From Pontibacter sp. G13 (GTDB taxonomy: Bacteria > Bacteroidota > Bacteroidia > J057): DNA of 64,000 nucleotides. Shown in pieces: positions 2,444-17,981 of this stretch. The stretch spans positions 6,262,001 through 6,326,000 of the forward strand of contig NZ_CP134696.1 in the NCBI RefSeq assembly GCF_031851795.1, read 5' to 3'. The notes under the pieces were generated by a model. The model saw only the letters and a program-made list of their open reading frames with translations, had not been told where the DNA came from and made no database searches. Numbering within the stretch: position 1 is the stretch's first letter; the number at the start of each line of letters is the position of its first letter. The position numbers and the translations under genes were made by a program.

Positions 2444-5320
2444 TTATCGAATCAAGACTACCGTCCCCGCCCTCGTCTGCGAAATGCCTGACTCGAAGGT
2501 GTAGCGGAGCAAATACGTGTATACGCCTTCCTGAACTCCTTGGCGCAGATAGGTCCCATCCCAAGCGAGTTCAGGATCAAGGGACTGGAATATTTGTTCC
2601 CCCCAGCTATTGTAGATTTCAAATTGATACTGGGTGACCCCACAAGTCAGTCGCGGACCAAAGCGCTCATTGTGGGCATCGCCATTGGGGGTGAATGCAT
2701 TGGCAATGAACATCCTGCATCGACAATCGGCTTCCCAGATTTCGATCCCATCTGCACGCATTCCACATGCATTCCAAACTTCGATATGGTAAACGCCGGG
2801 GAGTTGAATCGTGAGGGTCTCATCAGTGCTTTGATCCGACCAGCGATAGGTTGCCCCGGAATCCGGTGAGGAAAGCACCATCATATCCCCCGGACAGATC
2901 ATCGTGTCTGGTCCTAGATCCGCGAAGGGCATCCGGCCTTGAACCAAGTTCAGGGTGTCGGTTTTTATGCCACAGACATGATTCATGGTAGCTTCGTAGA
3001 TGCCAGCGAATTCAATGGGTCGCAAAACTTGGTCGTATCCATCAGCCCATAGGATCTGACCTTGTGCGAGCGAGGCATCGACTTCCCAGATTTGGTCGGG
3101 GCATAAGATTCCATCTGGGCCGAGCGTCCAGTCGATGAGTGGGTCGGATTCGATCGTGAGGGTGTCGCTGTCTTCTCCGCATTCTGTTCCTACTTGCACA
3201 TGGTAGATTCCGCTTGTGTAGGCGGTAAATGAAGGACTGGAGGATTGATCCTGCCAGAGAATCCAATCTGCTGAATCTGGGACGCTCCAAGTCATGGATG
3301 CATCCGTGCAGAGAAATGTATCTCTGCCCAAGTCGATATCGGGGATCCAGCCATATCGGACCTGTTGGGTGAAATGGGCAATCTCGCAGGCATCTTCCAA
3401 TACCAGTTGTACATAGGTCGGCGTGTCCACTAAAAAGGTAGTCTGCGAAAATTGTCCTTGCCAAGTGGCATATGCAAAAGGCAAATCTGCGCTCAGAAGA
3501 AGCGTTTCTCCCGGACACAAGGACGTATCTGGCCCCAGTTGAAAGCTGGGAATCACACTGCCGGCCACCAGCAAGGTATCTCGATCCGTACCGCAAATGG
3601 TTGTGGCTTCTGCCCAATAAGTGCCCCAATTGTCAATCTCCACGATGGGTACATGCGGATTTCCATTCCATAGATAGGCTGCTTGAGGATTGGTGAAATC
3701 CAGCTGAATGGTATCTCCAAGGCAGAGCAGGGTATCGGGCCCTAAATCCACGACAGGTAGGGGACGGTGCAAGAGTTGGAGGGAATCCCGATCGGTTTGG
3801 CCACAAAGGTCGGAGATTTCCACCCAATACCATCCCGGCTGAGATGCATGAAATTGAGATTGGACAGATTGATCCTGCCAAGTGAAGGAAACATTGGAGA
3901 CCTGAGGATTCAATAGCAAGGTGTCGTGGGGACAAATCGCCGTATCGATCCCGAGGCGCACAACAGGGGGAGGAATGTGGCTAATCCAGATCGAATCTGT
4001 ATCCTGACTGCCGCACTGATCCGTCGCCATCACCCAATAAAGGCCTGTCTGGGAAGCAGGGTATTGGACAGTGTTGGACTGATCTTGCCATTGATAGGTC
4101 CAGCCAGACTGGGCAACCGAAAGCGAGAGGGTATCTTGAGGGCATATCGCCGTGTCAGGCCCAAGGGAGATCTGTGGAGGGGCTATGTGGTCGATGACGA
4201 TAGTGTCTTTCGCAGTGCCGCAGGCGAATTGAACATCCACCCAATAAAGCCCGGGCTGTGTGACTAGGAGCTGCGAATCGGTACTTTGGTCAGACCAGAG
4301 ATAGGTGCCATCTTCCAGTGAAGCCAACAGTAGAACGGTATCCTGTGGGCAAATCGTGGTATCTGCCCCCAGGGCTATTTCTTCTGGCAGAATATGGACC
4401 GTCACCGTGGCGGTATCATACCAGCCATTGACATGGTAGGTTGTCGTCGTAGTGGGAGCAACCGCGAATATCGAGTCATTAAATAACTGTACATTGGGAT
4501 TGAGGCTGTCCACCCAGCTGTAAGCATACCCCCCGCTTGCCATGAGCATGATGCTATCGCCCGCACAGATGGTCGTGTCATTGGATACCTGCATGGTGAT
4601 TGGGATCACTTCTACCTTGTCAAAGAAATAATATCCTGCATCAAATTGGGTGTAAATGGAAGGCACCTGATAGGTGATGCCGATGGTGGCATTGTTGAAA
4701 AAGCTACCCAGTGTAATGTGTGTATAGGCTGAGTCCGCAGTATAAATGAAATCGACCAATTGCCATCCCGTATTCCAGATTTGATTGGGGTAAAGCAACT
4801 GGGGAATGAGATTCAAGGGGGCCCAAGTGCTCTGATAAATCTGACCTACCGTAAACAATGCGCCAATTCCGTTGGTGCTGTAGCCGGCGATGTGGTTGGC
4901 GCTTCCATTGGTGATGTAGAATGAAACCTTGTAGGTTTTGCCGGGAATCATGGGTGTGGACAGCGGGGAAGAAATGTATTCGCGGAGGTCATATTGGGTG
5001 CCGTGATAGGTGAACAGGCCCATGACTGCTTGGCCCGAATATGGTGAAACTGTGGCTGGAAGGGGATTGGGGAGGGCACCTGTTCCACTTCCCAGCATGT
5101 GCAAATAATCGGGAGTCCCGGCTGCGTTTAGATTATTCCAGCCATTACAATAGTAGTATTGCCCAAACATGTTGGGGAGGGTGGAATATTGTTCAAAGTC
5201 GCCATTGGGAAGAATATTTTGGGCGTGAAGTGGAGCATCCCAAAACGACATGACCAGCCCCATGACCAATATCAGGGCCCGCCATCCCCATTTGAAGGGA
5301 GGAGAAATACTAGGAGACAT
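2444..5320 (-). CDS. Secreted repeat protein with gliding-type (CHU_C) T9SS sorting domain
   Basis: A 958-residue exported protein. Residues 1-33 form a signal peptide ending ...APLHAQ. Residues about 35-240 are a unique adhesin-like region (NGDFEQYSTLPN motif, common in carbohydrate-binding-like N-domains). Then come nine tandem modules of about 65-75 residues; eight start LGxDxxxC and most continue CPxDTL, WQDQS, GxYWV and CG, like Ig/PKD-type modules with a conserved cysteine pair. The C-terminus (from FIANAFTPNGDAHNE to the final VVLIR) matches the gliding-motility-associated C-terminal domain (TIGR04131), a type B T9SS sorting signal. The product should be secreted across the outer membrane and attached or released there, probably as an adhesin. 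It is monocistronic with its own terminator. Confidence 0.88.
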   Translation of the reverse strand: MSPSISPPFKWGWRALILVMGLVMSFWDAPLHAQNILPNGDFEQYSTLPNMFGQYYYCNGWNNLNAAGTPDYLHMLGSGTGALPNPLPATVSPYSGQAVMGLFTYHGTQYDLREYISSPLSTPMIPGKTYKVSFYITNGSANHIAGYSTNGIGALFTVGQIYQSTWAPLNLIPQLLYPNQIWNTGWQLVDFIYTADSAYTHITLGSFFNNATIGITYQVPSIYTQFDAGYYFFDKVEVIPITMQVSNDTTICAGDSIMLMASGGYAYSWVDSLNPNVQLFNDSIFAVAPTTTTTYHVNGWYDTATVTVHILPEEIALGADTTICPQDTVLLLASLEDGTYLWSDQSTDSQLLVTQPGLYWVDVQFACGTAKDTIVIDHIAPPQISLGPDTAICPQDTLSLSVAQSGWTYQWQDQSNTVQYPASQTGLYWVMATDQCGSQDTDSIWISHIPPPVVRLGIDTAICPHDTLLLNPQVSNVSFTWQDQSVQSQFHASQPGWYWVEISDLCGQTDRDSLQLLHRPLPVVDLGPDTLLCLGDTIQLDFTNPQAAYLWNGNPHVPIVEIDNWGTYWAEATTICGTDRDTLLVAGSVIPSFQLGPDTSLCPGETLLLSADLPFAYATWQGQFSQTTFLVDTPTYVQLVLEDACEIAHFTQQVRYGWIPDIDLGRDTFLCTDASMTWSVPDSADWILWQDQSSSPSFTAYTSGIYHVQVGTECGEDSDTLTIESDPLIDWTLGPDGILCPDQIWEVDASLAQGQILWADGYDQVLRPIEFAGIYEATMNHVCGIKTDTLNLVQGRMPFADLGPDTMICPGDMMVLSSPDSGATYRWSDQSTDETLTIQLPGVYHIEVWNACGMRADGIEIWEADCRCRMFIANAFTPNGDAHNERFGPRLTCGVTQYQFEIYNSWGEQIFQSLDPELAWDGTYLRQGVQEGVYTYLLRYTFESGISQTRAGTVVLIR

Positions 5321-5549: not shown

Positions 5550-6251
5550 TCAGGAGTTCACACTCATTGTCGCGACATTCGCAGCGGTGGTAGAGGCGAT
5601 GATGGTGGCAATCATAGCGGCTTGCATTTCCTCCATGGCCGTTTCCATTCCTTTGGAGAGGGGGTCCTTGGCCATGAGTTCCGTGATCTTGGATTTAGCC
5701 TCCTTGACTTCGGATTTCCCCTCGGCGATCAATTTGTACAATTTACATCCTTGGATCAGTCCCAAAAATGGCTTGTAAGAAGGATCGAGGTGATTCGAGG
5801 CGAATACCTGCGTCCGCAACGCATCTCTGAACCACTCATGCGTCTCGGGTTTTTCGAGGTGTGTGATTTTATAGGGAATGAAGAGGAACTTCTTTCGCTC
5901 GATACGTAAGACCTCCGCTTCGACCAATTGCTCTTCATACACTTTCCGGAATTTATGGGCGATCATGTTATTGGAAGAAATCCAATAGCTGGGCTTTCTC
6001 AATTTTTTGGACTTGGCCATTCGGTCGAGCATCATCTGGTGTGCTTCCGAAAGGTCGGTTTCAAAACGGTCGATATGGACCTTGCCTTCTTCGAGCCGGA
6101 TATTTTCGGCCTTAACCAAATCCATCATCATGGCTCCGCAAATGCCAATGGAAAGCGTCGAAACGGGAATTGCATAATTGGGCTTCTCCGTTCGATGGGA
6201 GAGGATGATGAGTTGTTCTGCTAGGGAAAAGGAAGCGTTTAATGGGTTCAT
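5550..6251 (-). CDS. GPP34/GOLPH3-like protein
   Basis: A 233-residue soluble protein, ATG at 6249-6251 (complement). Residues about 8-55 resemble the start of the GPP34 (Golgi phosphoprotein 3) domain: SLAEQLIILS, then a hydrophobic helix GICGAMMMDLVKAENIRL followed by EEGKVHI, which matches the usual pattern of an L/E-rich helix, an AllaELa-type helix and a short strand. In eukaryotes the family binds phosphoinositides; bacterial members are uncharacterised. The middle (residues 75-160) is rich in lysine/arginine, and the last 30 residues are an alanine/methionine-rich tail (AAMIATIIASTTAANVATM) that could be a short amphipathic or membrane-contacting helix. It is divergent from the HMG-CoA reductase operon. 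The family call rests on the N-terminal third only. Confidence 0.55.
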   Translation of the reverse strand: MNPLNASFSLAEQLIILSHRTEKPNYAIPVSTLSIGICGAMMMDLVKAENIRLEEGKVHIDRFETDLSEAHQMMLDRMAKSKKLRKPSYWISSNNMIAHKFRKVYEEQLVEAEVLRIERKKFLFIPYKITHLEKPETHEWFRDALRTQVFASNHLDPSYKPFLGLIQGCKLYKLIAEGKSEVKEAKSKITELMAKDPLSKGMETAMEEMQAAMIATIIASTTAANVATMSVNS

Positions 6252-6588: not shown

Positions 6589-7836
6589 ATGAAAGGTGGG
6601 ATTGCAACGAATCTGCAAATAGTCGGGTATAAGCCTCCCAACGAGTCGGTCCTGATCGATCGACCATCACCACTCACAGCAGCACAAAATATGAAACCAA
6701 CCTCGATGTCTAAATTTGGATATTTTCCCAGCAAGATGCCTCGGCAGCCTGAAAAGCTGGAATTGCCTACTGGCCCATTTCCCCAAGAGACTTGGACTGG
6801 CCATATCGAGCGATTCGTAGGTATGACACAAGTTCCGACGGGCTTGGTAGGCCCATTGCACATATTGGGGCAGCATATGTCAGGCGAAGTGATGGTCCCT
6901 CTTGCCACGACCGAGGGCGCTTTGGTCGCTTCCTACCATCGAGGAGCCAAAGCTACTCGACTCGCAGGAGGCATCAAGACCTTGATCACGCAAGAGCAAG
7001 TTCAAAGGTGCCCAGTGTTTGTCATGGATCATCTGGGGGATGTAGCAAGCTTCCTGACTTGGCTAGTGGATTGCCTTCCAGAAATGCAACGAATCGCGCG
7101 GCAACAAACTCGATTTGGCTCCCTGATCAGCTGCGAACCACTTGTGGAGGGCAATCAGGTCATCTTGACATTGAATTTTCATACGGGCGATGCTGCCGGG
7201 CAAAATATGGTGACATTCTGTACGGAAGCGATTTGTAGGTACATCCTTGACCAATTGCCTGTACAACCCAAACGCTGGTATATCGAGAGTAACTTTTCTG
7301 GAGATAAAAAAGCCACCCAAAGGGCCATGACTCAGGCACGCGGAAAACGGGTATCTGCGGAATGTGAGCTGTCGGCTGAAGTGGTCCAGGAAGCGCTCAA
7401 GAGTACGCCAGCAGATATTGAGGCATACTGGCGAAGTAGCACGGTCAATACGGTCCAGTCTGGAGCGATTGGAACGATGGGGCATGCTGCGAATGGTCTC
7501 ACGGCCTTATTTCTGGCCACTGGCCAAGATGTCGCCTGCGTGTCCGAGGCCAGTGTGGGAATTACTCGATTGGAAGAAACCGAGTCTGGCGGCCTCTACG
7601 CCACCGTCACCTTGCCCAACCTCATCGTCGGAACCGTGGGAGGAGGAACGGGACTTCCCACCCAAGGAGCCTGCTTGGAATTCATGCAATGCGCTGGGAC
7701 AGGACATGCCCGAAAATTTGCCGAGATCTGCGCTGCGCTGGTATTGGCTGGAGAGCTCTCCATAGCCGCAGCCCTTGCCGCTGGTCATTTCGCACGCGCC
7801 CATCGCAGCTTGGGCCGTACCGCCAAAAAAGCTTGA
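6589..7836 (+). CDS. Hydroxymethylglutaryl-CoA reductase
   Basis: A 415-residue protein with the full catalytic set of HMG-CoA reductase, which makes mevalonate from HMG-CoA. Substrate motif VPTGLVGPL leads to TTEGALVAS with the catalytic Glu109; SGDKKAT supplies Lys240; ATGQDVA supplies Asp314; VGTVGGGTGLPTQ is the nucleotide/CoA loop; and the C-terminal helix GHFARAHRSLGR supplies His405. The C-terminal arrangement is like class I (eukaryote/archaeal-type) enzymes; there is no membrane domain. The first 50 or so residues are not conserved, so an internal start (Met at 6691 or 6706) is possible. It is the first gene of a seven-gene operon; the 24-bp gap to the prenyltransferase gene argues that it serves that pathway as well as, or instead of, housekeeping isoprenoid synthesis. 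Confidence 0.93.
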   Translation: MKGGIATNLQIVGYKPPNESVLIDRPSPLTAAQNMKPTSMSKFGYFPSKMPRQPEKLELPTGPFPQETWTGHIERFVGMTQVPTGLVGPLHILGQHMSGEVMVPLATTEGALVASYHRGAKATRLAGGIKTLITQEQVQRCPVFVMDHLGDVASFLTWLVDCLPEMQRIARQQTRFGSLISCEPLVEGNQVILTLNFHTGDAAGQNMVTFCTEAICRYILDQLPVQPKRWYIESNFSGDKKATQRAMTQARGKRVSAECELSAEVVQEALKSTPADIEAYWRSSTVNTVQSGAIGTMGHAANGLTALFLATGQDVACVSEASVGITRLEETESGGLYATVTLPNLIVGTVGGGTGLPTQGACLEFMQCAGTGHARKFAEICAALVLAGELSIAAALAAGHFARAHRSLGRTAKKA

Positions 7837-7859
7837 TCTACCTTTCAAAATCGATTCAC

Positions 7860-8813
7860 ATGCCTACTACCCACACCGCAGTCAATCCTGTCAGATCAGG
7901 ACTGGCCAAGAGATTCTGGCAATACCTCAAAGAGCGATTTCCGATTCAAAATCACGGCTTACTGATTTTGGTCTTTACCTTCTCTGTGATCAGTTACTCG
8001 CTTCGCCTGCGGGGAGAAACTTCATTTATCTCCACAGGCGCTTTTCTGGGGGCTATTGCCTCCAATTTGGTCCTGTTCTTCGTCCTACGGGTCATGGATG
8101 AATTCAAGGATGCCGAGACAGATGCCGCGTTTCGTTCCCATCTTCCAGTCCCGAGAGGACTTATTCGCCTCAAGGAACTCGCGATCATTGCCGTGATCGT
8201 GGCAATCCTTCACTTTGTGGGACTGCTGGTTTGGTTTCCGGAGATGATGGGACTTTATCTGGTCGTGGTAGGCTATCTCTTTCTGATGCGATACGAGTTT
8301 TTCGTAGGGGAATGGCTTACCCGCCGCCCCGTGATCTATGCGTGGTCTCACATGCTGATCATTCCGTTGGTTGATGTATTTGCGGCAGGATTTGATTGGC
8401 GGATGTCTGGTGAATTTCCCCACCCGGGACTGGGGATTTTCTTTTTGGTTTCGCTATTCAATGGAATGGTGCTTGAAATCGGACGAAAGATCCGTATTCC
8501 GCAAGATGAAGCAGAAGGCGTGATCACTTACTCTGCACAGTACGGCCATGGAAAAGCGCTTGGGATGTGGGCACTGATGCTGTTGGGAACCTTCTGCTTT
8601 GCTTGTTGGGCGGGCCTATTCGTGGAGTTTAGCTGGGTATGGTTCGCACTGTTGACGGTTTGCTTCGGCGCTGCCTTAGCGGTGGGATTTCGATTCTATC
8701 AATCCCCCACTTCCAAAGGGGCCAAGGCCATCGAACGGGTCTCCGGAATCTGGGCATTGGGCATGTACCTCTTGCTAGGTGCAGGGCCGCAATTGATGTC
8801 TTTATTGGCTTGA
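7860..8813 (+). CDS. UbiA-family prenyltransferase
   Basis: A 317-residue polytopic membrane protein with about eight or nine hydrophobic segments. The first aspartate-rich motif of UbiA enzymes is seen as RVMDEFKDAETD (about residues 77-88), at the end of a helix as expected. The second is RKIRIPQDEAEGVITYS (near residue 210), whose GVITYS tail matches the GvrTlp/GVxTYS element. UbiA enzymes transfer a prenyl group from a prenyl diphosphate to an aromatic, glycerol or other acceptor in the membrane; the acceptor cannot be read from sequence. ATG at 7860 is chosen, because the open frame upstream overlaps the HMGR gene in a different frame and has no family sequence. The stop at 8813 is 40 bp before the next gene. 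Confidence 0.85.
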   Translation: MPTTHTAVNPVRSGLAKRFWQYLKERFPIQNHGLLILVFTFSVISYSLRLRGETSFISTGAFLGAIASNLVLFFVLRVMDEFKDAETDAAFRSHLPVPRGLIRLKELAIIAVIVAILHFVGLLVWFPEMMGLYLVVVGYLFLMRYEFFVGEWLTRRPVIYAWSHMLIIPLVDVFAAGFDWRMSGEFPHPGLGIFFLVSLFNGMVLEIGRKIRIPQDEAEGVITYSAQYGHGKALGMWALMLLGTFCFACWAGLFVEFSWVWFALLTVCFGAALAVGFRFYQSPTSKGAKAIERVSGIWALGMYLLLGAGPQLMSLLA

Positions 8814-8852
8814 TGGCCGTTCCTTCGCTGTATTTCACCCTAATCCCTCATC

Positions 8853-11450
8853 ATGCATTTTATCACAGAATCTCAAATAGATAGCGCTTCCTTGCACTTG
8901 CTTGGAGGCAAAGGAGCCCAATTGTGGCAACTTACGCTGCTTGGATTGCCCGTCCCGCATTGGGGAGTTCTGCCATTCCACATTTCTCTGGATGATCACG
9001 CAGAATCCGTGCTAGAAGAGTTGGTGGAATATTTCGGTCCATCTGCACGATTGGCTATTCGGTCCTCTGCAACCGATGAGGATGGAAGTCAATTGTCGTT
9101 TGCAGGTATGTACACCACCTTGTTGCATGTACCCATCCATCAGGCGATTTCTGCCATCCAGGAGGTGCGGGAATCGGTGTTTGCTGCTGAAGCCCACGCT
9201 TACAGGCAGGCGAATGAAACTCACACACCTGCAAAAATGAGTGTCATCATTCAAGAGATGGTGGCCGCAGATGTATCTGGCGTGGCATTCGGATTGGACC
9301 CTGTCTCCGGCAATCGACAAGGACGAGTCATCAATGCGGTATTTGGTCTGGGGGAAGGATTGGTGTCCGGCAAACTTCCCGCCGATACGTTTCGATGGGA
9401 ACAGGGAAGTTGGCATGCACAAGTTGTTGACAAGTCTGTCATGGTGCAGCCTGAGGATTCCGACCAGCTAGGGGTTAGGTTGGGCAAAGTACCAGCGGAT
9501 TTGCGACGGTTACCCACCTTGTCGTCAGCAAAACTTACGGAACTTCGCCAATTGTTAGACCTGTTGGAAAAGGAATGGGGGAGGCCTCAAGATGTGGAAT
9601 TTGCCTACCAAGGGGACCGATTGCAGGTGTTGCAGGCACGTCCAGTCACAGGACTTGATCAATTGCCCGATCGGACTGCCAAGCCAAGGGTCTGGGATAA
9701 TTCCAATATCGTGGAGTCCTATCCCGGACAGACGCTGCCATTGACTTTTTCCTTCATTCTGAGGATGTACGAAGGCGTTTATCGGCAGCTTAGTCTCCTT
9801 TTTGGAATCTCCCAAAAGGTCCTCGACCAACATGCAGGGATTTACCGAAACATGCTGGGACTGATGAAAGGCCGAGTGTACTACAATCTCCGCAGTTGGT
9901 ATGAAGCATTGGCACTGCTACCGGGCTATTCCCTCAATGCCCGATACATGGAAACGATGATGGGAGTGCAGGAGCGATTTGATGTGGACAAGCGTCAGGG
10001 AGGAAAATGGTATGGTTGGTTGGGAATTGGCCGAATGGTCGCAAGGATGGTGTTTGCTTGGCGACGTCTGCCGAAGGAAACCCGAAAATTTCAGCAACAT
10101 CTGGCGGCGGTTCTGGAGGAATACAAAACGGTGGATTGGAATCGAAAATCCATCGAGGAGATTTTGGCGGGAATTGTCGCATTCGAAGGAAAGCTCCTGA
10201 CGAAATGGAAGCCTCCAATGGTCAATGATTTCTTTGCGATGATCTTTTTCGGCCTGCTGAAGAAATCGGTGGAGGGAGTAGGCCCTGAGATACCGGTCAA
10301 TCTGCACAATGATTTGCTCTGTGGGGCATCTGATATTGTTTCGACCGAACCCATCGACCGAATGTTGGCATTGTCCGAGATGATTCAGCAAGACCCTCAT
10401 TGGCACGAATCCTTCCAAAACCTTTCCCCAGAGATACTTTGGAGTTCACTCAAACTGCAGGACTCCTCACCATTGATGGTGGCCATTCAGGCATATCTCG
10501 ACAAGTTTGGAGACCGCTGCATCGGCGAATTGAAATTGGAATCGATTCCTTACCAAGATCATCCCGAGGCAATGATATCTATGCTCCAGTCATTCGTTCG
10601 GCAGGGATTGAAGCCCACGACTGCTGCTGAAGGAAAAGGCAAAGTCATTCGGTCAAAAGCCGAGAAAATTCTGAATGAGCGTACTCGGAGCCGCCCCTTC
10701 AAGCGATGGATGATTGGGGGATTGCTCAGAAACACGCGGCGATTGGTCAGCAATAGAGAGAATCTGCGATTCGCCAGAACCTTGGCTTTTGGGACTGTCA
10801 GAATGCTCTATCGGGAATTGGGCCGCAAACTTTGGGTGGAGAATCTATTGAATGACCGCGAGGACATCTTTTACCTTACCCAGCAGGAGATTACAGGTTT
10901 TGTAGAGGGAACAGCTATCGATGTAGACCTCAAGGGACTCGTGGAATTCCGAAAGCGCCAATACGCAATCTGGTCTGATCAACAACCCGATCCTCGATTC
11001 CGGACTTATGGTCCCGTCCATACCCAGCGAGTCTTCAAGGGGGAGATGAGCCCTTCAGATGCTCCCGCCGAACTGACCGGAATCGGATGCTGCCCCGGAG
11101 TTGTGCGTGCAAGGGTCCGCATGGTCCACCATCCCAAGGATTTGAAAGATTTGGCTGGGGATATTTTGGTGTGTATCAGCACCGATCCGGGGTGGGTTCC
11201 CTTGTTCCCTACAGCAGCGGGACTGCTGGTTGCGAGAGGCAGCTTGCTGAGTCATGCCGCTATTGTTGCGCGAGAGATGGGTAAACCCTGCATTGTGGGT
11301 ATTGATGGATTGATGCAAGGGATCCAAACGGGAGATTGGGTCGAAATGGATGGCGCCACTGGACAGATTCGCAGAATCGATCCTCCTACTGAGACTGAAC
11401 CAATTGATTCCACCCCTTCAACTTCCTACCATCATGTCGAAACTCACTGA
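8853..11450 (+). CDS. PEP synthase-like dikinase (ATP-grasp plus phosphohistidine domain)
   Basis: An 865-residue protein of the phosphoenolpyruvate synthase/pyruvate phosphate dikinase superfamily. The N-terminal ATP-binding domain (about 1-290) shows GGKGAQLWQL, the AIRSSATDED loop, SGVAFGLDP and the closing LQARPVTG. A middle region (about 300-740) is unlike canonical PEP synthase. The C-terminal mobile domain has GCCPGVVRA and GSLLSHAAIVARE with the phospho-accepting His801. The canonical PEP/pyruvate-binding C-terminal barrel is absent, as in rifampin phosphotransferase, so the enzyme probably transfers the beta phosphate of ATP to a non-pyruvate hydroxyl acceptor, releasing AMP and phosphate. 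In this operon the acceptor could be a lipid or prenyl intermediate. Its 3' end overlaps the next gene by 17 bp. Confidence 0.85.
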   Translation: MHFITESQIDSASLHLLGGKGAQLWQLTLLGLPVPHWGVLPFHISLDDHAESVLEELVEYFGPSARLAIRSSATDEDGSQLSFAGMYTTLLHVPIHQAISAIQEVRESVFAAEAHAYRQANETHTPAKMSVIIQEMVAADVSGVAFGLDPVSGNRQGRVINAVFGLGEGLVSGKLPADTFRWEQGSWHAQVVDKSVMVQPEDSDQLGVRLGKVPADLRRLPTLSSAKLTELRQLLDLLEKEWGRPQDVEFAYQGDRLQVLQARPVTGLDQLPDRTAKPRVWDNSNIVESYPGQTLPLTFSFILRMYEGVYRQLSLLFGISQKVLDQHAGIYRNMLGLMKGRVYYNLRSWYEALALLPGYSLNARYMETMMGVQERFDVDKRQGGKWYGWLGIGRMVARMVFAWRRLPKETRKFQQHLAAVLEEYKTVDWNRKSIEEILAGIVAFEGKLLTKWKPPMVNDFFAMIFFGLLKKSVEGVGPEIPVNLHNDLLCGASDIVSTEPIDRMLALSEMIQQDPHWHESFQNLSPEILWSSLKLQDSSPLMVAIQAYLDKFGDRCIGELKLESIPYQDHPEAMISMLQSFVRQGLKPTTAAEGKGKVIRSKAEKILNERTRSRPFKRWMIGGLLRNTRRLVSNRENLRFARTLAFGTVRMLYRELGRKLWVENLLNDREDIFYLTQQEITGFVEGTAIDVDLKGLVEFRKRQYAIWSDQQPDPRFRTYGPVHTQRVFKGEMSPSDAPAELTGIGCCPGVVRARVRMVHHPKDLKDLAGDILVCISTDPGWVPLFPTAAGLLVARGSLLSHAAIVAREMGKPCIVGIDGLMQGIQTGDWVEMDGATGQIRRIDPPTETEPIDSTPSTSYHHVETH

Positions 11451-12564
11451 TCAGGTTGATTTCAGCCTTATCCGATACGCTTCCTGCTGGGAAGATGCGG
11501 AAAGGCTCGTCCAAGGCTTGGAGATCGAGCCGCATCACCGCGTCTTGTCGGTGGCCTCCGCTGGTGACAATAGCCTCTCCTTGCTGACGGCAGGTCCTAG
11601 ATTGGTCAAAGCAGTGGATGTGAGTATGCCTCAACTCTACTTGACGGAGTTGAAGCGGGCAGCATTTGCGTGGTTGTCCTATGAGGAAATGATGGCGTTG
11701 TTGGGGTTTGAGGAATCGGAAAAACGATGGAGTATCTACCAATATCTTAGGCCTCGTTTGCATGCCAATACGCGCACGTATTGGGACGACCATCGAACAC
11801 TCATCGAGAAGGGCCTCATTTATCAAGGGAAATTAGAACAGTATTTCAAGCTGTTTTCAACCAGGGTATTGCCTTGGATTCATGGACCTCGAACCGTTAA
11901 TGCCCTTTTCGACCAAAAGACAGAGACCCAGCAAGCGGAATTTTTCAGGAAGGTATGGAACACGTGGAGGTGGCGGACTTGCTTTCGGATATTCTTCAGT
12001 AAATGGGTGATGGGCAAAATAGGCCGAGATCCTGCTTTTCTGGAGCAAGTGGAAGTTCCGGTTTCGACCTTCATCTTGAATCAGGCCGCCCGACATTTGG
12101 CTGATCCCTACTGCGTGGAGAATCCTTTCCTCCGAATGATCATGACAGGGAGCTTTGATGAATTTCTGCCACACTATGTCAAGCGCATCCATTTCGACCA
12201 AATCAAAGCCCAGATCTATTCGCTGGAAATTGAATCAGGATACGTCCAAGATCATGCGGCTGAAGAAGCATTTGACCGATTTAATCTATCCAACATCTTC
12301 GAATACGTGGATGGCGATACCTTCCGTGCCATCTCCGACAAGCTCCTGAGGCATGCTACTCCCAGAAGTAGGTTTGCCTACTGGAATCTCATGGTTCCAA
12401 GGTCCTTGCAGACGCTTTTTCCAGCGGAAGTTCAATTGATCCAGACTCCGTTCCATCGACCTGATGATGGCTTCTTTTACCGGAGCTTCGAGGTGGTGGA
12501 GCGATTGGCACTTCCCCAAACAGACCGAATCTCTACGTCTCACACCCAAAATCTCTCGCCATGA
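11434..12564 (+). CDS. DUF3419/BtaA-like SAM 3-amino-3-carboxypropyl transferase
   Basis: A 376-residue protein. The N-terminus has YASCWEDAE and VLSVASAGDNSLSLLTAG followed by VKAVDVSMPQLYLTELK, which together match the BtaA (DUF3419) S-adenosylmethionine-binding region. In known BtaA, the 3-amino-3-carboxypropyl group of SAM is moved to diacylglycerol in betaine-lipid synthesis. The partner methyltransferase BtaB is not in this operon, so if the chemistry holds, the product would be an unmethylated homoserine ether lipid, or the acceptor differs. ATG 11434 overlaps the end of the dikinase gene; the frame upstream is not family-like. The last four bases overlap the kinase gene (ATGA), which suggests translational coupling. 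Confidence 0.82.
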   Translation: MSKLTDQVDFSLIRYASCWEDAERLVQGLEIEPHHRVLSVASAGDNSLSLLTAGPRLVKAVDVSMPQLYLTELKRAAFAWLSYEEMMALLGFEESEKRWSIYQYLRPRLHANTRTYWDDHRTLIEKGLIYQGKLEQYFKLFSTRVLPWIHGPRTVNALFDQKTETQQAEFFRKVWNTWRWRTCFRIFFSKWVMGKIGRDPAFLEQVEVPVSTFILNQAARHLADPYCVENPFLRMIMTGSFDEFLPHYVKRIHFDQIKAQIYSLEIESGYVQDHAAEEAFDRFNLSNIFEYVDGDTFRAISDKLLRHATPRSRFAYWNLMVPRSLQTLFPAEVQLIQTPFHRPDDGFFYRSFEVVERLALPQTDRISTSHTQNLSP

Positions 12565-13241
12565 ACCAAACGCTCATTCCGATGGCTACCCTTGCTGCCT
12601 CTTTTCTGACGCTGTTTGGCGGAGCCGAATGGATTCATCGAAAAGGTCGTCTTGAGGCAGAATGGAGCCGCAAGCTCGTCCATATTGTGACGGGGTTGAT
12701 CACCTTGGCCTTTCCGTTGGTCTTGACGAGTCATTGGCAGGTCCTCATCCTATGCGCGTCCTTTGGCGTGATTCTGAGCATTTCGAAGCGGAATGCGTTC
12801 CTCCCTTCCATCAATGGAATTGACCGAAAATCCCACGGATCTATTTTGTACCCGGTTTCGGTATATGGTTGTTTTCTCATGTTCCAATGGCAGGGAGATC
12901 TGATCTGGTTCTATGCACCGATCTTGACGATGGCCATCTGCGATCCCATTGCTGCGTGGGTCGGTTCCCAAACGAATTGGAAACCCTATCAAGTGGGCGC
13001 AGACAAAAAGACACTCGGTGGAAGCTTGGCATTTTTGGGAGCCTCGGCATTACTTCTGACGGGATTGTTTAGCTGGATGCCTTTTCCTGCGGAAGGCTCA
13101 CCCACGATTCTGGCGTTATTTCTGGCTTCGATGGCTACACTGGCAGAAGGAATCAGCCAGCATGGCCGCGACAATTTTTGGATTCCGGTGGCTGTGTCTC
13201 TCGGGATGCTTTTTCCAACTATCATCACGCACCTGATATGA
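12561..13241 (+). CDS. CTP-dependent diacylglycerol/polyprenol kinase family protein
   Basis: A 226-residue membrane protein with seven or so hydrophobic segments. Key motifs are RKLVHIVTGL (residues about 36-45), AICDPIAAWVG and DKKTLGGSLAFL, the signature set of the SEC59/DGK1/VTE5 family of CTP-using kinases related to CDP-diglyceride synthases. Members phosphorylate dolichol, diacylglycerol or phytol. Next to a UbiA prenyltransferase, a prenol-phosphorylating role like plant VTE5 is attractive, but a diacylglycerol kinase role would fit the BtaA-like neighbour equally well. The start overlaps the preceding stop by 4 bp and the stop overlaps the next start (ATGA at 13238), so all three genes are translationally coupled. 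Confidence 0.8.
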   Translation: MNQTLIPMATLAASFLTLFGGAEWIHRKGRLEAEWSRKLVHIVTGLITLAFPLVLTSHWQVLILCASFGVILSISKRNAFLPSINGIDRKSHGSILYPVSVYGCFLMFQWQGDLIWFYAPILTMAICDPIAAWVGSQTNWKPYQVGADKKTLGGSLAFLGASALLLTGLFSWMPFPAEGSPTILALFLASMATLAEGISQHGRDNFWIPVAVSLGMLFPTIITHLI

Positions 13242-14302
13242 AACCCTATTCTTGTGTATCTACCCAGCCAGGAGATCAGCTTTGGGAGTTATGGTGTTCC
13301 ATCCCCGCATTGATTGATCCTCAACATCATCACGAATGGGCCACAAAGCCTCAACCAGATGATGGGAAATTCTGGAAGGGATTGATCCTGTATCAAGACA
13401 GTTTGCCTATCGGCAGATTGGGACTTTACCGACCAGTGGACTTCTCTTTAGATGGTCAAGCCTGTGGAATGGTAGGGCATTATGCTTGTGTGAATAATCC
13501 ACGAGGTGCCTCATATCTGTTGGGAGCGGCTACCCAAATGTTTCATGAGTTGGGCTGGAATCGTTGGATCGGGCCTATGGATGGCAGCACTTGGGACGCT
13601 TACCGATTCCGTTTGGAAAACCGGCCGATTACCTGCTTGGGGGAGCAGCAACACCCAACCTACTTCGCCAACCATTTCCAGCAGGCGGGGTGCGAGGTCA
13701 TGGCCGAATATGTGACCTCCAAATCCTATGAGTTTCCTTGTGATCCGAATTGGAGGGAGACTCAAGCCCGCTTTGAAAGGAGAGGGATCCGCTTCCGGAC
13801 TATGGATATGGACCGATATGAGGAGGAATTGCGGGGAGTGTTCCCATTGTGTAAAGCAGGTTTTCGAAACAACTATGTGTACACAGACATCTCTGAATCA
13901 CATTTTCTGAGCAAATATCTTCCACTCAGGAAGTTCTTGAAGGCTGAATGGATATTTCTGGCCGAGGATGAAGGCGAATTGGTGGGATTGATGTTTGCGT
14001 ACCCCAATCTCCCTCACATTCATCCCAAGTCTGTTGTGGCCAAAACGGTGGTGCGCGCTCCCGGACGAAAATATGCTGGAATTGGACGAGTATTGGCCAA
14101 TCTCCTTCATCATCACATGCAGGAAACGGCAATGGAGGAACTGGTTCATGCTTTCATGATCCTCGATGGAAATGGTCAGGCTCTTTCCCATCGCTATTTC
14201 GGGGAGCTGTATCAACGCTATCATCTGTACGGATTCGGATTTCCGCAATCAACCCCCAAACGCGCTTCTTTTCCCACACTAGAATCCTTGATGCATGGCT
14301 AA
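13238..14302 (+). CDS. GNAT-like acyltransferase protein
   Basis: A 354-residue protein that resembles two-lobed GNAT-like proteins. The N-lobe has ACVNNPRGASYLLGAA and then GPMDGSTWDAYRF, a motif I associate with this family. The C-lobe (about 230-330) has the GNAT-type sequence EGELVGLMFAYPN followed by KTVVRAPGRKYAGIGRVLANLL, matching the acetyl-CoA-binding helix start (RGxGIG-like). It probably transfers an acyl group from a CoA or ACP thioester to an amine or hydroxyl. ATG 13238 is in a 4-bp overlap with the kinase stop. The stop overlaps the acyl-AMP ligase start by 8 bp, which suggests that activation of an acid and its transfer are coupled. Confidence 0.7.
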   Translation: MKPYSCVSTQPGDQLWELWCSIPALIDPQHHHEWATKPQPDDGKFWKGLILYQDSLPIGRLGLYRPVDFSLDGQACGMVGHYACVNNPRGASYLLGAATQMFHELGWNRWIGPMDGSTWDAYRFRLENRPITCLGEQQHPTYFANHFQQAGCEVMAEYVTSKSYEFPCDPNWRETQARFERRGIRFRTMDMDRYEEELRGVFPLCKAGFRNNYVYTDISESHFLSKYLPLRKFLKAEWIFLAEDEGELVGLMFAYPNLPHIHPKSVVAKTVVRAPGRKYAGIGRVLANLLHHHMQETAMEELVHAFMILDGNGQALSHRYFGELYQRYHLYGFGFPQSTPKRASFPTLESLMHG

Positions 14303-15890
14303 ATCCCCAGTTACACTAGACGCTCCGGTGGATCTGCAAGATGCCAATGTGGTTCATCTTTTCCTTCGACAAGCTTCACGGCATGGCGACCGGATTGCCT
14401 TGATCGACCGAGATGGAACCCAGATTTCCTATCGGACCCTTGCTGACCAAATTCGTCAAACGGCTTCGGCCTTTCATCGAAAAGGTGTTCGACGCGGGGA
14501 TCGCATGCTGGTGTTCATTCCCATGTCCATTGATCTATATCGGACTGTATTGGCCTTGTTTTATCTGGGGGCAACAGCGGTATTTCTGGATGAATGGGTG
14601 AGTATCAAACGGCTCTCAATCTGTTGCGACTTGGTCAAGTGTAGAGGTCTCATTGCTGGAGCTAAATTGAGATTTGTGGCGTGGTGGCTTCCTCCGCTTA
14701 GAAGATTGGCCATCCGCATAGGCTCAGAATATGCCCAATCTGAAACGCCTCATCCTGCATCCGCGGAAGTTTCCTCCGAAGACACAGCCCTGATCACATT
14801 TACGACAGGCAGTACTGGAATTCCCAAGGCGGCGGACCGTACCCATGCATTTCTGAATGCCCAGTTTGAAGCCCTTTTTAGTGAGATTCAACCCAAAGCA
14901 GGGGAGGTGGCCATGCCAGCTCTCCCGATCGTTTTGCTGATCAATCTTGCCGCTGGGGCAACCTCTGTCATTGCAGATGTGCCTGCCACGCAACCCCATC
15001 GAATGAAGCCAGAGAAGGTCGCTCGGCAGCTACGTGATCATCAGGTTAAGCGCTTGACATGCTCTCCTTTATTGGTGGACCGCTTGGCAACCTGGGCGAT
15101 AAATTCTCAGGAAGCCTTTCCCGATTTGAAGCAGATTTTCACGGGAGGAGCTCCTGTTTTTCCAGAAATGGCAGCCCGTTTCAAACGAGCTTTCCCACAC
15201 GCGGATATTCGGGTGGCCTATGGCTCCACTGAGGCAGAGCCGATCAGTCTTGCGACCGTCGGTCAGGTTTTGGAGTATGACCTTCCCGGAAAGGGGCTCT
15301 GCGTAGGCCATATCCACAAGCGAACCAAGTTGTCTATTCAGCCTGTAGATGATCAGGCTTGGCCATCTCTGACTTCCCAAGAATGGAAAAATCGGGAATT
15401 AAAAGCTGGACAGGTTGGTGAGATTGTGGTCGCTGGCCCGCATGTGCTAACTCGGTACATTGACAATCCTGAGGCGTGGAACCGTCAAAAGGTGAGGGTT
15501 GGGCAACAAATATGGCACAGGACGGGAGATGCAGGGTTTATTTCAGCGTCAGGGTTGCTCTATCTGGTAGGTAGATGTAATCAGCTGATCGAAACTTCGG
15601 AGTACATGATTGCTCCATTTGTGGTGGAATCTCAGTTGTCGGCGCTTCTGGGAATTTCTGTGGGAACTGTGCTGGAGTTGAATGGGGAAATTTGGATAGC
15701 GGTTGAATGCGCGAAGGAATTGCCTGCCCAAACCTTGGAGGCCATGAAGTCCATTATTCCTAGTTCTGCTGGCTATTTGTCGTTACAGACAATTCCTCGT
15801 GATCCACGGCATCAAGGAAAAATCGACTATGGGAAACTGTCCCAACACCTAGTCAAGCATATTGGAAAAGCCCATCGTTGGAACCGCTAA
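14295..15890 (+). CDS. AMP-dependent acyl ligase (fatty-acid CoA ligase/OleC-like)
   Basis: A 531-residue adenylate-forming enzyme. Residues about 40-60 match the usual N-terminal ISYRTLAD segment. The P-loop is TFTTGSTGIPKAADRTH (about 168-184), A5 is AYGSTEAEP, A7 is WHRTGDAGFIS, and A8 is YLVGRCNQLIE. The expected catalytic lysine near the C-terminus is in HQGKIDYGKL. The closest well-known relatives in layout are long-chain fatty-acid ligases and OleC beta-lactone synthetases; there is no carrier domain. It is the last gene of the operon, so it probably activates a fatty or isoprenoid acid for the adjacent GNAT-like protein. The next gene is convergent and 37 bp away, and I see no clear terminator between them. 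Confidence 0.85.
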   Translation: MAKSPVTLDAPVDLQDANVVHLFLRQASRHGDRIALIDRDGTQISYRTLADQIRQTASAFHRKGVRRGDRMLVFIPMSIDLYRTVLALFYLGATAVFLDEWVSIKRLSICCDLVKCRGLIAGAKLRFVAWWLPPLRRLAIRIGSEYAQSETPHPASAEVSSEDTALITFTTGSTGIPKAADRTHAFLNAQFEALFSEIQPKAGEVAMPALPIVLLINLAAGATSVIADVPATQPHRMKPEKVARQLRDHQVKRLTCSPLLVDRLATWAINSQEAFPDLKQIFTGGAPVFPEMAARFKRAFPHADIRVAYGSTEAEPISLATVGQVLEYDLPGKGLCVGHIHKRTKLSIQPVDDQAWPSLTSQEWKNRELKAGQVGEIVVAGPHVLTRYIDNPEAWNRQKVRVGQQIWHRTGDAGFISASGLLYLVGRCNQLIETSEYMIAPFVVESQLSALLGISVGTVLELNGEIWIAVECAKELPAQTLEAMKSIIPSSAGYLSLQTIPRDPRHQGKIDYGKLSQHLVKHIGKAHRWNR

Positions 15891-17019: not shown

Positions 17020-17844
17020 TCACGATTGAATCATCTGCTGAATGATTCTCTTTCGAGCCGACTGAAAAGCTGGATGCAGTCCCACGGTCTCGCCAATGAC
17101 AATGATCCCGGGTGTACCGATCTTTTCTGCAATCACTTGGTCGGCCAGGGTATGGACGGTTCCGACAACGGATCGTTTGTTGGGAAGTGATCCATGTTGA
17201 ATGACCATCGCAGGCGTATCCGATTGTCCGTGGTCAGCAAAAACCTGAGTAATCTCCCTGATTCGGCGAATTCCCATAAGAATGACCACTGTAGCCGACG
17301 ATTGTGCCGCTAGTTCAAGATCTTTCGATAATGCCAAATCCTGCGTAGTTCCCGTCACCACCCAAAAGCTTTCATTGATCCCTCTACAGGTAAGCGGTAC
17401 CTGTTCCAAACCCGGTAAGCTTGTGCTACTGGAAATCCCCGGAATGATCTCTACTGGGATATCGCATGCCTTGGCAAATTCCAACTCTTCGTACCCACGC
17501 CCGAAAATAAATGGATCGCCGCCTTTGAGTCGGACGACATGGCCATGTTGGTAGGCATGCTCGACCATGAGGAACTGTATTTCTTGTTGGGAGAATCGGT
17601 GACGATCTGCACGCTTCCCCACAAAAATTCGCTTCGCATTCCGCGGGAGATACTCGAGTAGTGCGGGATTGGCGAGGGCGTCATATAGGACCACATCGGC
17701 GGATTGGAGTGCTTTCACTCCTTTAAGTGTAATCAACTCTGGGTCTCCTGGACCGGCTCCTACTAGCGTAATCCTAGGGGTAGATAGAGAAGACGACGCT
17801 GAGGATTGCGGCGTGGATTCGAAGGGAGTGGTACGTAGGGTCAT
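17020..17844 (-). CDS. cobA: Uroporphyrinogen-III C-methyltransferase (SUMT)
   Basis: A 274-residue SUMT, which makes precorrin-2 from uroporphyrinogen III using SAM, the first committed step to siroheme. Motifs: ITLVGAGPGDPELITLKG, ADVVLYDAL, LKGGDPFIFGRGYEE, IIPGISSS and VTGTTQD. It is the plain CobA type without CysG dehydrogenase/chelatase domains. ATG at 17842-17844 is chosen because an in-frame ATG at 17910 would put the start inside the TACGTA-containing control region. It diverges from nirB, whose product needs siroheme, so it belongs functionally to the nitrite island. A separate precorrin-2 dehydrogenase/ferrochelatase is not seen here and must lie elsewhere. Confidence 0.92.
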   Translation of the reverse strand: MTLRTTPFESTPQSSASSSLSTPRITLVGAGPGDPELITLKGVKALQSADVVLYDALANPALLEYLPRNAKRIFVGKRADRHRFSQQEIQFLMVEHAYQHGHVVRLKGGDPFIFGRGYEELEFAKACDIPVEIIPGISSSTSLPGLEQVPLTCRGINESFWVVTGTTQDLALSKDLELAAQSSATVVILMGIRRIREITQVFADHGQSDTPAMVIQHGSLPNKRSVVGTVHTLADQVIAEKIGTPGIIVIGETVGLHPAFQSARKRIIQQMIQS

Positions 17845-17887
17845 GATGCGTGACTGTTGAGAGGTTGATACGCAATGATAGGAAAAA

Positions 17888-17918
17888 TTACGTAAAAATT
17901 TAGGTATCATTACGTAAT
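17888..17918. promoter_or_regulatory. Putative NarL-type regulator sites between cobA and nirB
   Basis: TTACGTAA (17888-17895), TAGGTA (17901-17906) and ATTACGTAAT (17909-17918) lie in the divergent cobA-nirB control region. The same words occur near the regulator gene and the porin gene of the same island. Confidence 0.5.
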
Positions 17919-17927
17919 TTTTCTATG

Positions 17928-17958
17928 TTTGGTCATCGGTACTGTCCGGATAATACGT
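17928..17958 (+). promoter_or_regulatory. Candidate nirB promoter with TACGTA at the -7 element
   Basis: TTTG (17928-17931), a 19-base spacer, then TAATACGT (17951-17958) inside ATACGTAAT. The first half fits the phylum -7 element but the TTTG half is replaced by ACGT, suggesting an activator-dependent promoter. Predicted start is near 17965, 17 bases before the nirB ATG. Confidence 0.45.
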
Positions 17959-17981
17959 AATATTTCTCAATCGCTACGCAT

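Follow-up and report, generated by a model that had tools for sequence, protein, structure and literature searches.

A run of seven open reading frames (ORFs), all on the + strand at 6589-15890, lies in the window, the 64,000-nt stretch of the Pontibacter sp. G13 genome analysed here. These genes, called the cassette below, may together encode a pathway to an undescribed amino lipid. They are as follows.

6589-7836, + strand: 3-hydroxy-3-methylglutaryl-CoA (HMG-CoA) reductase (HMGR)-like reductase of the class I fold (Pfam HMG-CoA_red, PF00368, E 3e-111)
7860-8813, + strand: UbiA-fold transferase (PF01040, E 7e-13) with a DExKDxxxD first motif and an altered second motif (GRK replacing Asp)
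8853-11450, + strand: phosphoenolpyruvate (PEP)-synthase-like dikinase with rifampin-phosphotransferase architecture (Pfam PPDK_N and PEP-utilizers; PDB 5hv2/5fbs)
11434-12564, + strand: DUF3419 protein, a predicted S-adenosylmethionine (SAM)-dependent 3-amino-3-carboxypropyl transferase (PF11899, E 4e-61)
12561-13241, + strand: membrane CTP-dependent kinase-like protein of the VTE5/DGK1/CdsA type (PF01148 in 4 of 27 relatives)
13238-14302, + strand: predicted N-acyltransferase of the tandem-GNAT type, distantly related to the YghO family (structure model and hhalign comparison with that family)
14295-15890, + strand: fatty-acid-type AMP-forming ligase, PRK09274/OleC-like (PF00501, E 3e-43)

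A preliminary description of this DNA had reported seven same-strand genes between these positions, and the ORFs lie exactly there. The overlaps it gave (17, 4, 4 and 8 nt, in order from the dikinase through the AMP ligase) are correct, while its gaps of 24 and 40 are coordinate differences, the true HMGR/UbiA and UbiA/dikinase spacers being 23 and 39 nt. The single candidate promoter it proposed was not recovered: on the + strand between 6252 and 6588, upstream of the cassette, there was neither a sigma-70-type nor a TAnnTTTG-type site. Its family assignments for HMGR, UbiA, dikinase, DUF3419 and AMP ligase were borne out by Pfam. The window's CTP-kinase-like and GNAT proteins had no Pfam match at E 0.01, and their families were matched only via relatives, CTP_transf_1 (PF01148) in 4 of 27 scanned CTP-kinase-like proteins (best E 6e-5) and Acetyltransf_1 in 25 of 50 scanned GNAT proteins.

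The grouping of the seven genes goes beyond chance, because all of them are present in 33 of the 40 uncut loci that were fetched with UbiA alone. The GTDB genome collection yielded 264 relatives in that scan; the best 80 loci were kept and the other 184 left out. An uncut locus has at least 6 kb upstream and at least 8 kb downstream, which holds for 40 of the 80, many others being cut by contig ends. Among the exceptions in the uncut set, four are without HMGR (L054, L067, L082, L117), L074 is without HMGR and CTP kinase, L086 is without the AMP ligase, and L094 holds a lone UbiA. Across the 80 loci the dikinase was found in 75, DUF3419 in 64, HMGR in 62, CTP kinase in 56, GNAT in 54 and AMP ligase in 52, counts that miss a few genes hidden by overlapping ORFs (the UbiA of L055, the CTP kinase of L100). 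The complete set occurs in 41/80 loci, with the window's gene order in 37/80. A single-sequence search with the GNAT protein in 296 genomes of the phylum gave matches with E < 1e-30 in seven other genomes; all seven (7/7) have the complete set as neighbouring genes, whose order varies, and three of those contigs are also among the 80 UbiA loci. A neighbourhood search had been suggested in the preliminary description, and both searches find the genes conserved together.

Median intergenic gaps in cassette loci range from -4 to +11 nt when first start codons are used. Pairwise protein distance correlations lie between 0.64 and 0.91 for 44 distinct complete sets (0.71-0.92 with doubled contigs included) and count as support only, since shared ancestry alone raises them. 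Three contigs were entered twice (L035=L071, L037=L111, L038=L107) in the residue-row counts given below for UbiA, dikinase and CTP kinase; the HMGR counts (65) and the correlations exclude these duplicates. Proteins under a length limit were left out, for example HMGRs of < 350 aa. No gene fusions hinting at the order of steps were found, and the long ORF of the L125 AMP ligase includes no in-frame GNAT domain. Separately, four loci (L072, L080, L094, L118) have a cassette-type UbiA alone, the other six genes not being found in the surrounding DNA of the locus.

The cassette is a conserved gene set found in several phyla. The record titles of the 80 loci name Bacteroidota, Chlorobi/Kapabacteria, Verrucomicrobia, Planctomycetota, Gemmatimonadetes, Latescibacterota, Chloroflexi-type metagenome-assembled genomes (MAGs) and one gammaproteobacterial MAG, labels that can be wrong where they belong to MAGs. 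Beyond Bacteroidota, the whole cassette is present in L120 (Planctomycetota), L127 (Gemmatimonadetes), L128 (the gammaproteobacterial MAG) and L132 and L133 (Verrucomicrobia); the remaining non-Bacteroidota loci are partial or cut. In the alphaproteobacterium Roseinatronobacter sp. S2, which comes from culture, the cassette sits on a 136.7-kb plasmid, where the last 174 codons of HMGR alone appear at the record edge and the gene start would span the origin of the circular record. The other genes there are annotated as UbiA family, PEP/pyruvate-binding, DUF3419, hypothetical, hypothetical and AMP-binding. Cultured bacteria that hold the complete set are Dyadobacter jiangsuensis DSM 29057, Sphingobacterium olei HAL-9, Rhabdobacter roseus DSM 105074 and Portibacter lacus YM8-076, and lipidomics is therefore directly possible.

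The HMGR-like protein was expected, in the preliminary description, to make mevalonate, and its residues contradict this. The catalytic residues Glu559, Lys691, Asp767 and His866 (human numbering) are kept in 65/65 distinct cassette HMGRs. At the HMG-carboxylate-binding positions, position 684, a Ser in HMGRs, is Glu in 65/65, and position 735 is Lys in 0/65; the column for position 735 holds different residues in two alignments, with no Lys in either. The PDB HMGR chains 6hr7, 8ecg and 7uli keep both Ser684 and Lys735. L108 and L113 have an identical HMGR end. Scores against the TIGR00533 equivalog model are 287 (window), 341 (L034) and 311 bits (L035), against a cut-off of 441.8. Genome content points the same way: 6/8 cassette genomes, the window's own included, have DXR and no match to the mevalonate decarboxylase MvaD, and the other two have an MvaD match (E ~1e-47) below the curated cut-off and, in addition, a class II HMGR of their own that scores above the TIGR00532 cut-off. 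The cassette copy is the sole HMGR in 5/7 other carriers. A search for HMG-CoA synthase (PF01154) matched 0/8 cassette genomes and was discarded as evidence because it missed even both genomes with an MvaD match. Mevalonate supply was rejected as the role of this gene on its residues, the TIGR00533 cut-off and genome content. The protein is probably not a mevalonate enzyme, and we predict that it reduces acyl-CoAs without being specific to HMG-CoA.

Similar substitutions occur in other HMGR-like proteins. The window's genome carries a second HMGR-like gene (contig C1, 4488200-4489363) adjoining an MBOAT acyltransferase gene; it was considered as the canonical copy and rejected, since it has the same substitutions. 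It belongs to a second subfamily of ~515 aa, which has Glu684 in 21/22 and Lys735 in 0/22 of the sequences examined. Of 395 genomes of the phylum that were searched, 32 had an HMGR-like match, which in 23/32 was only of this second type or weaker. A tree rooted on 6hr7 sets the cassette type (69 rows, support 0.79) apart from the second type (22 rows, support 1.0). The 69 rows include three doubled contigs and an orphan copy from genome G025, and the cassette rows by themselves are not monophyletic because that orphan falls among them.

The GNAT protein appears to be remotely related, over its full length, to the YghO family of presumptive bacterial ceramide synthases. Comparison of the cassette GNAT profile with a YghO-family profile by hhalign gave a probability of 100% and E 3.5e-41 over 334 columns. 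The structure model, built on 50 rows (the window's protein and 49 of 53 available locus members), is a tandem GNAT with a predicted local distance difference test (pLDDT) score of 89.6; against 7q3a it reaches Z 20.7 with a root-mean-square deviation of 4.4 over 289 residues, and against MshD (2c27) Z 18.8. When the GNAT search was relaxed to E 1e-3, 210/296 genomes were matched; eight of the weaker matches were inspected and resemble YghO-type proteins of ~380 aa, and the weaker loci L040, L042, L043 and L044 contain no further cassette gene besides these GNAT-like matches. On an E. coli plasmid the gene order is serine palmitoyltransferase (SPT)-type enzyme, acyl carrier protein (ACP), epimerase, fatty acyl-AMP ligase and yghO, and we equate yghO with ECD_02850 because this order matches ECD_02854 to ECD_02850. 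One paper suggests that ECD_02850 is an N-acyltransferase acting on sphinganine to give dihydroceramide, and lists Caulobacter CC_1154 among the genes needed for dihydroceramide (PMC9386255). In the plasmid collection, two more YghO-family genes adjoin a gene for a pyridoxal phosphate-dependent (PLP) enzyme. The amino-lipid idea is strengthened, because the GNAT protein is ceramide-synthase-like. It was initially described as the partner that transfers the ligase's acid, and is better placed among relatives of these presumptive ceramide synthases.

The UbiA-fold protein is strongly conserved, with D80, E81, K83, D84, D88, G208, R209, K210 and E217 in 88/88 rows (85 distinct). Its first motif is DExKDxxxD instead of NDxxDxxxD in all 88 rows, Asn-Asp having become Asp-Glu with the later acids retained. 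The second Asp-rich motif is not matched, and the corresponding Asp of chlorophyll synthase (9sau) aligns with Gly208 of GRK. UbiA enzymes normally need an allylic diphosphate donor. The dikinase has an ATP-binding domain, a middle region and a phospho-His domain in that order and no PEP barrel; His801 is present in 73/73 rows (70 distinct). Its best PDB matches, 5hv2 and 5fbs, were deposited as PEP synthase, and we take both to be rifampin phosphotransferases (RPHs).

DUF3419 is a single-copy gene in each of the 8 cassette genomes, always inside the cassette, and its protein had no PDB sequence match by phmmer. Its identity to a DUF3419 protein of Rhizobium leguminosarum, encoded just before a SAM methyltransferase, is only 22.5%, with the N-terminal region aligning; that pair is taken as a putative BtaA/BtaB. 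On plasmid pMK-2 of Rhizobium sp. (L182), DUF3419 occurs in an unrelated set with ketoacyl-ACP synthase III and CoF synthetase.

In the CTP-kinase-like protein, R37, K38, H41, D128, K150 and G154 are kept in 63/63 rows (60 distinct). Its structure alignment drew on 26 of the 55 locus members together with the protein of the window. Among the distinct members, 14/60, from lineages other than the window's, exceed 300 aa and have an extra C-terminal membrane domain of ~220 aa (e.g., the C-terminal half of L107:14514-15896). The model of the long form matches CdsA (4q2e) weakly (Foldseek probability 0.77, E 0.75), and the extra domain had no PDB sequence match and no convincing fold or family match. 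The AMP ligase scores 328 bits against NF006754, below the cut-off of 478, and shares only 21% identity with the acyl-AMP ligase encoded in the sphingolipid locus of E. coli.

The reading that we favour, held tentatively and at somewhat less than an even chance, is that the seven enzymes form a single membrane-associated pathway, dedicated to an undescribed amino lipid that carries an amide and is built on a SAM-derived aminocarboxypropyl group. The AMP ligase would activate an acid, and the HMGR-like enzyme, its HMG-CoA selectivity lost, would turn an acyl-CoA into a primary alcohol. Hydroxyls would be phosphorylated by the dikinase and the CTP-kinase-like protein, the UbiA-fold enzyme would attach an alkyl or prenyl chain, DUF3419 would supply the 3-amino-3-carboxypropyl group from SAM, and the GNAT protein would put an acyl group on the amine so introduced, as happens when ceramide is made. 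Two roles are conceivable for the reductase: providing the lipid alcohol to be alkylated by DUF3419, or acting on the aminocarboxypropyl carboxyl. The combination of ligase, reductase and enzymes of phosphoryl, chain, aminocarboxypropyl and acyl transfer in one set suggests an amino lipid that bears an amide and a phosphorylated alcohol; all substrates, the sequence of reactions and the end product are inferred. The amino-lipid part of the isoprenoid/amino-lipid pathway first proposed thus survives as the best reading, while the UbiA family is what is left of the isoprenoid part. The observation behind the preliminary description is confirmed, and its interpretation as a whole is partly supported.

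Several findings weigh against this amide-lipid reading. The co-occurrence rate describes the nearest UbiA relatives, the best 80 of 264, and L129 holds only UbiA, dikinase and DUF3419, with none of three further genes (CTP kinase, GNAT, AMP ligase) in the 6 kb downstream. HMGR is absent from 6/40 uncut loci, one of them the lone UbiA, and in G025 (L164/L142) a cassette-type HMGR stands as an orphan, the other six genes being absent within 19 kb and DUF3419 absent from the whole genome; HMGR is therefore separable from the cassette. The GNAT-YghO profile alignment has only 15% identity, and the structure matches of the GNAT model are headed by tandem GNATs with different roles, such as MshD and a glucosamine acetyltransferase. 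The second metal motif of the UbiA-fold protein is altered, and its reaction may therefore differ.

A more specific form of the idea, which we regard as unlikely, is a new class of bacterial membrane lipid made without SPT. DUF3419 would put the aminobutyrate of SAM on a lipid oxygen, and the ligase and the HMGR-like enzyme would convert the carboxyl of this unit into a primary alcohol. The GNAT protein would acylate the amine and the kinases would phosphorylate the alcohol, giving a mimic of ceramide phosphate that is reached by an entirely separate route. The bacterial sphingolipid pathway (SPT, AcpR, AasR, keto-sphinganine reductase and the N-acyltransferase YghO/ECD_02850 or CC_1154, the last of which we take to be the protein later named bCerS) shares an acyl-activating ligase with the cassette, whose GNAT is a remote relative of its N-acyltransferase, and an amide lipid is expected of both. 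It differs in that the cassette pathway would take its amine from SAM through DUF3419, and in the extra UbiA, HMGR-like, dikinase and CTP-kinase-like proteins. SPT, ACP and a sphingolipid-type reductase are not among the window's cassette genes, the rest of the genome not having been searched for SPT.

Of the other explanations, the one that survives best, and that we still think has a rather low chance of being right, is alcohol activation. The ligase and the HMGR-like enzyme would make an allylic alcohol from an unsaturated acid, the two kinases would convert it to its diphosphate, and UbiA would move the chain onto an acceptor, as in the addition of quinone-, tocopherol- or chlorophyll-like tails, with DUF3419 and GNAT decorating that acceptor. 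This fits the PDB sequence matches of the UbiA profile, which are to chlorophyll synthase and, weakly, to digeranylgeranylglyceryl phosphate (DGGGP) synthase (6m31) alone, as well as the CTP_transf_1 type of 4/27 CTP-kinase-like relatives. The long-form C-terminal membrane domain also has very weak hits to DUF92, which is presumably the VTE6 family, but these are not significant (E 3.5 and 0.9), and inspection by eye of the neighbour families common to at least three loci revealed no synthesis of an aromatic acceptor.

That the cassette makes a natural product which is secreted or diffuses away, and not a membrane lipid, is quite improbable in our estimate. AMP ligases, GNATs, UbiA enzymes and dikinases of the PigC/RPH type all occur in secondary metabolism, one set is plasmid-borne, and an ABC-ATPase family lies in the flanks of 4/80 loci. 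The dikinase shares its domain order with RPH and the prodigiosin ligase PigC and matches the RPH and PigC/RedH models, but far below the equivalog cut-offs. A family of ~190 aa, one member of which matches Polyketide_cyc2, occurs in 17/80 loci (inside the cassette in 14, beside it in 3), and is itself a hint of lipid. Against a natural product stands the finding that, apart from this SRPBCC-like family, no family recurs within the cassette in more than one or two of the 80 loci.

The preliminary description considered the pathway to be neither standard betaine-lipid nor archaeal lipid synthesis, and both are indeed unlikely, given the divergence of DUF3419 and the distribution of geranylgeranylglyceryl phosphate (GGGP) synthase. 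A prenylated, betaine-like homoserine-ether lipid supplied with mevalonate is improbable: the enzyme families are present, but the HMGR resembles class I HMG-CoA reductase in family and catalytic residues and differs from it in Ser684/Lys735 and TIGR00533 score, and most carriers have DXR without an MvaD match. DUF3419 is the family held in common with BtaA/BtaB, yet the cassette protein has low identity to the BtaA-like protein adjoining a methyltransferase and is without that protein's extra segments; no BtaB-type methyltransferase is present among the window's seven genes and two neighbours, the 80 loci having been clustered and not scanned for methyltransferases. Archaeal-type ether-lipid synthesis with UbiA as DGGGP synthase is very improbable, for beyond a common UbiA fold, the weak match to 6m31 and a GGGP synthase family in 4/8 cassette genomes (the window's own among them), it meets an altered second UbiA motif and a GGGP synthase family that is absent in 4/8 carriers, yet present in 11/16 genomes without the full cassette.

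Among the neighbouring genes, two membrane genes near HMGR in 3/80 loci look by eye like CdsA and a CDP-alcohol phosphatidyltransferase. In the window, a GPP34 (Golgi phosphoprotein 3-like) gene at 5550-6251 is divergent from the cassette, and 2444-5320 encodes a large surface protein that combines a CHU_C type IX secretion signal with a run of repeats resembling one another. After the cassette region, 17020-20492 holds a tetrapyrrole methylase (- strand) and a nitrite/sulphite reductase (+ strand).

The open-access PMC literature yielded no description of the gene set or its lipid, in line with the view in the preliminary description that no described pathway has this set. Each enzyme comes from a known superfamily, and the cassette lacks a defining feature of each pathway considered. 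If the SPT-free reading is true, the HMG-CoA reductase superfamily would hold a widespread and so far unrecognised branch of lipid acyl-CoA reductases. If the broader amide-lipid reading is true, a further membrane-lipid pathway would be added across several phyla, the HMGR family would have a role outside the mevalonate pathway, and many annotations would need correction.

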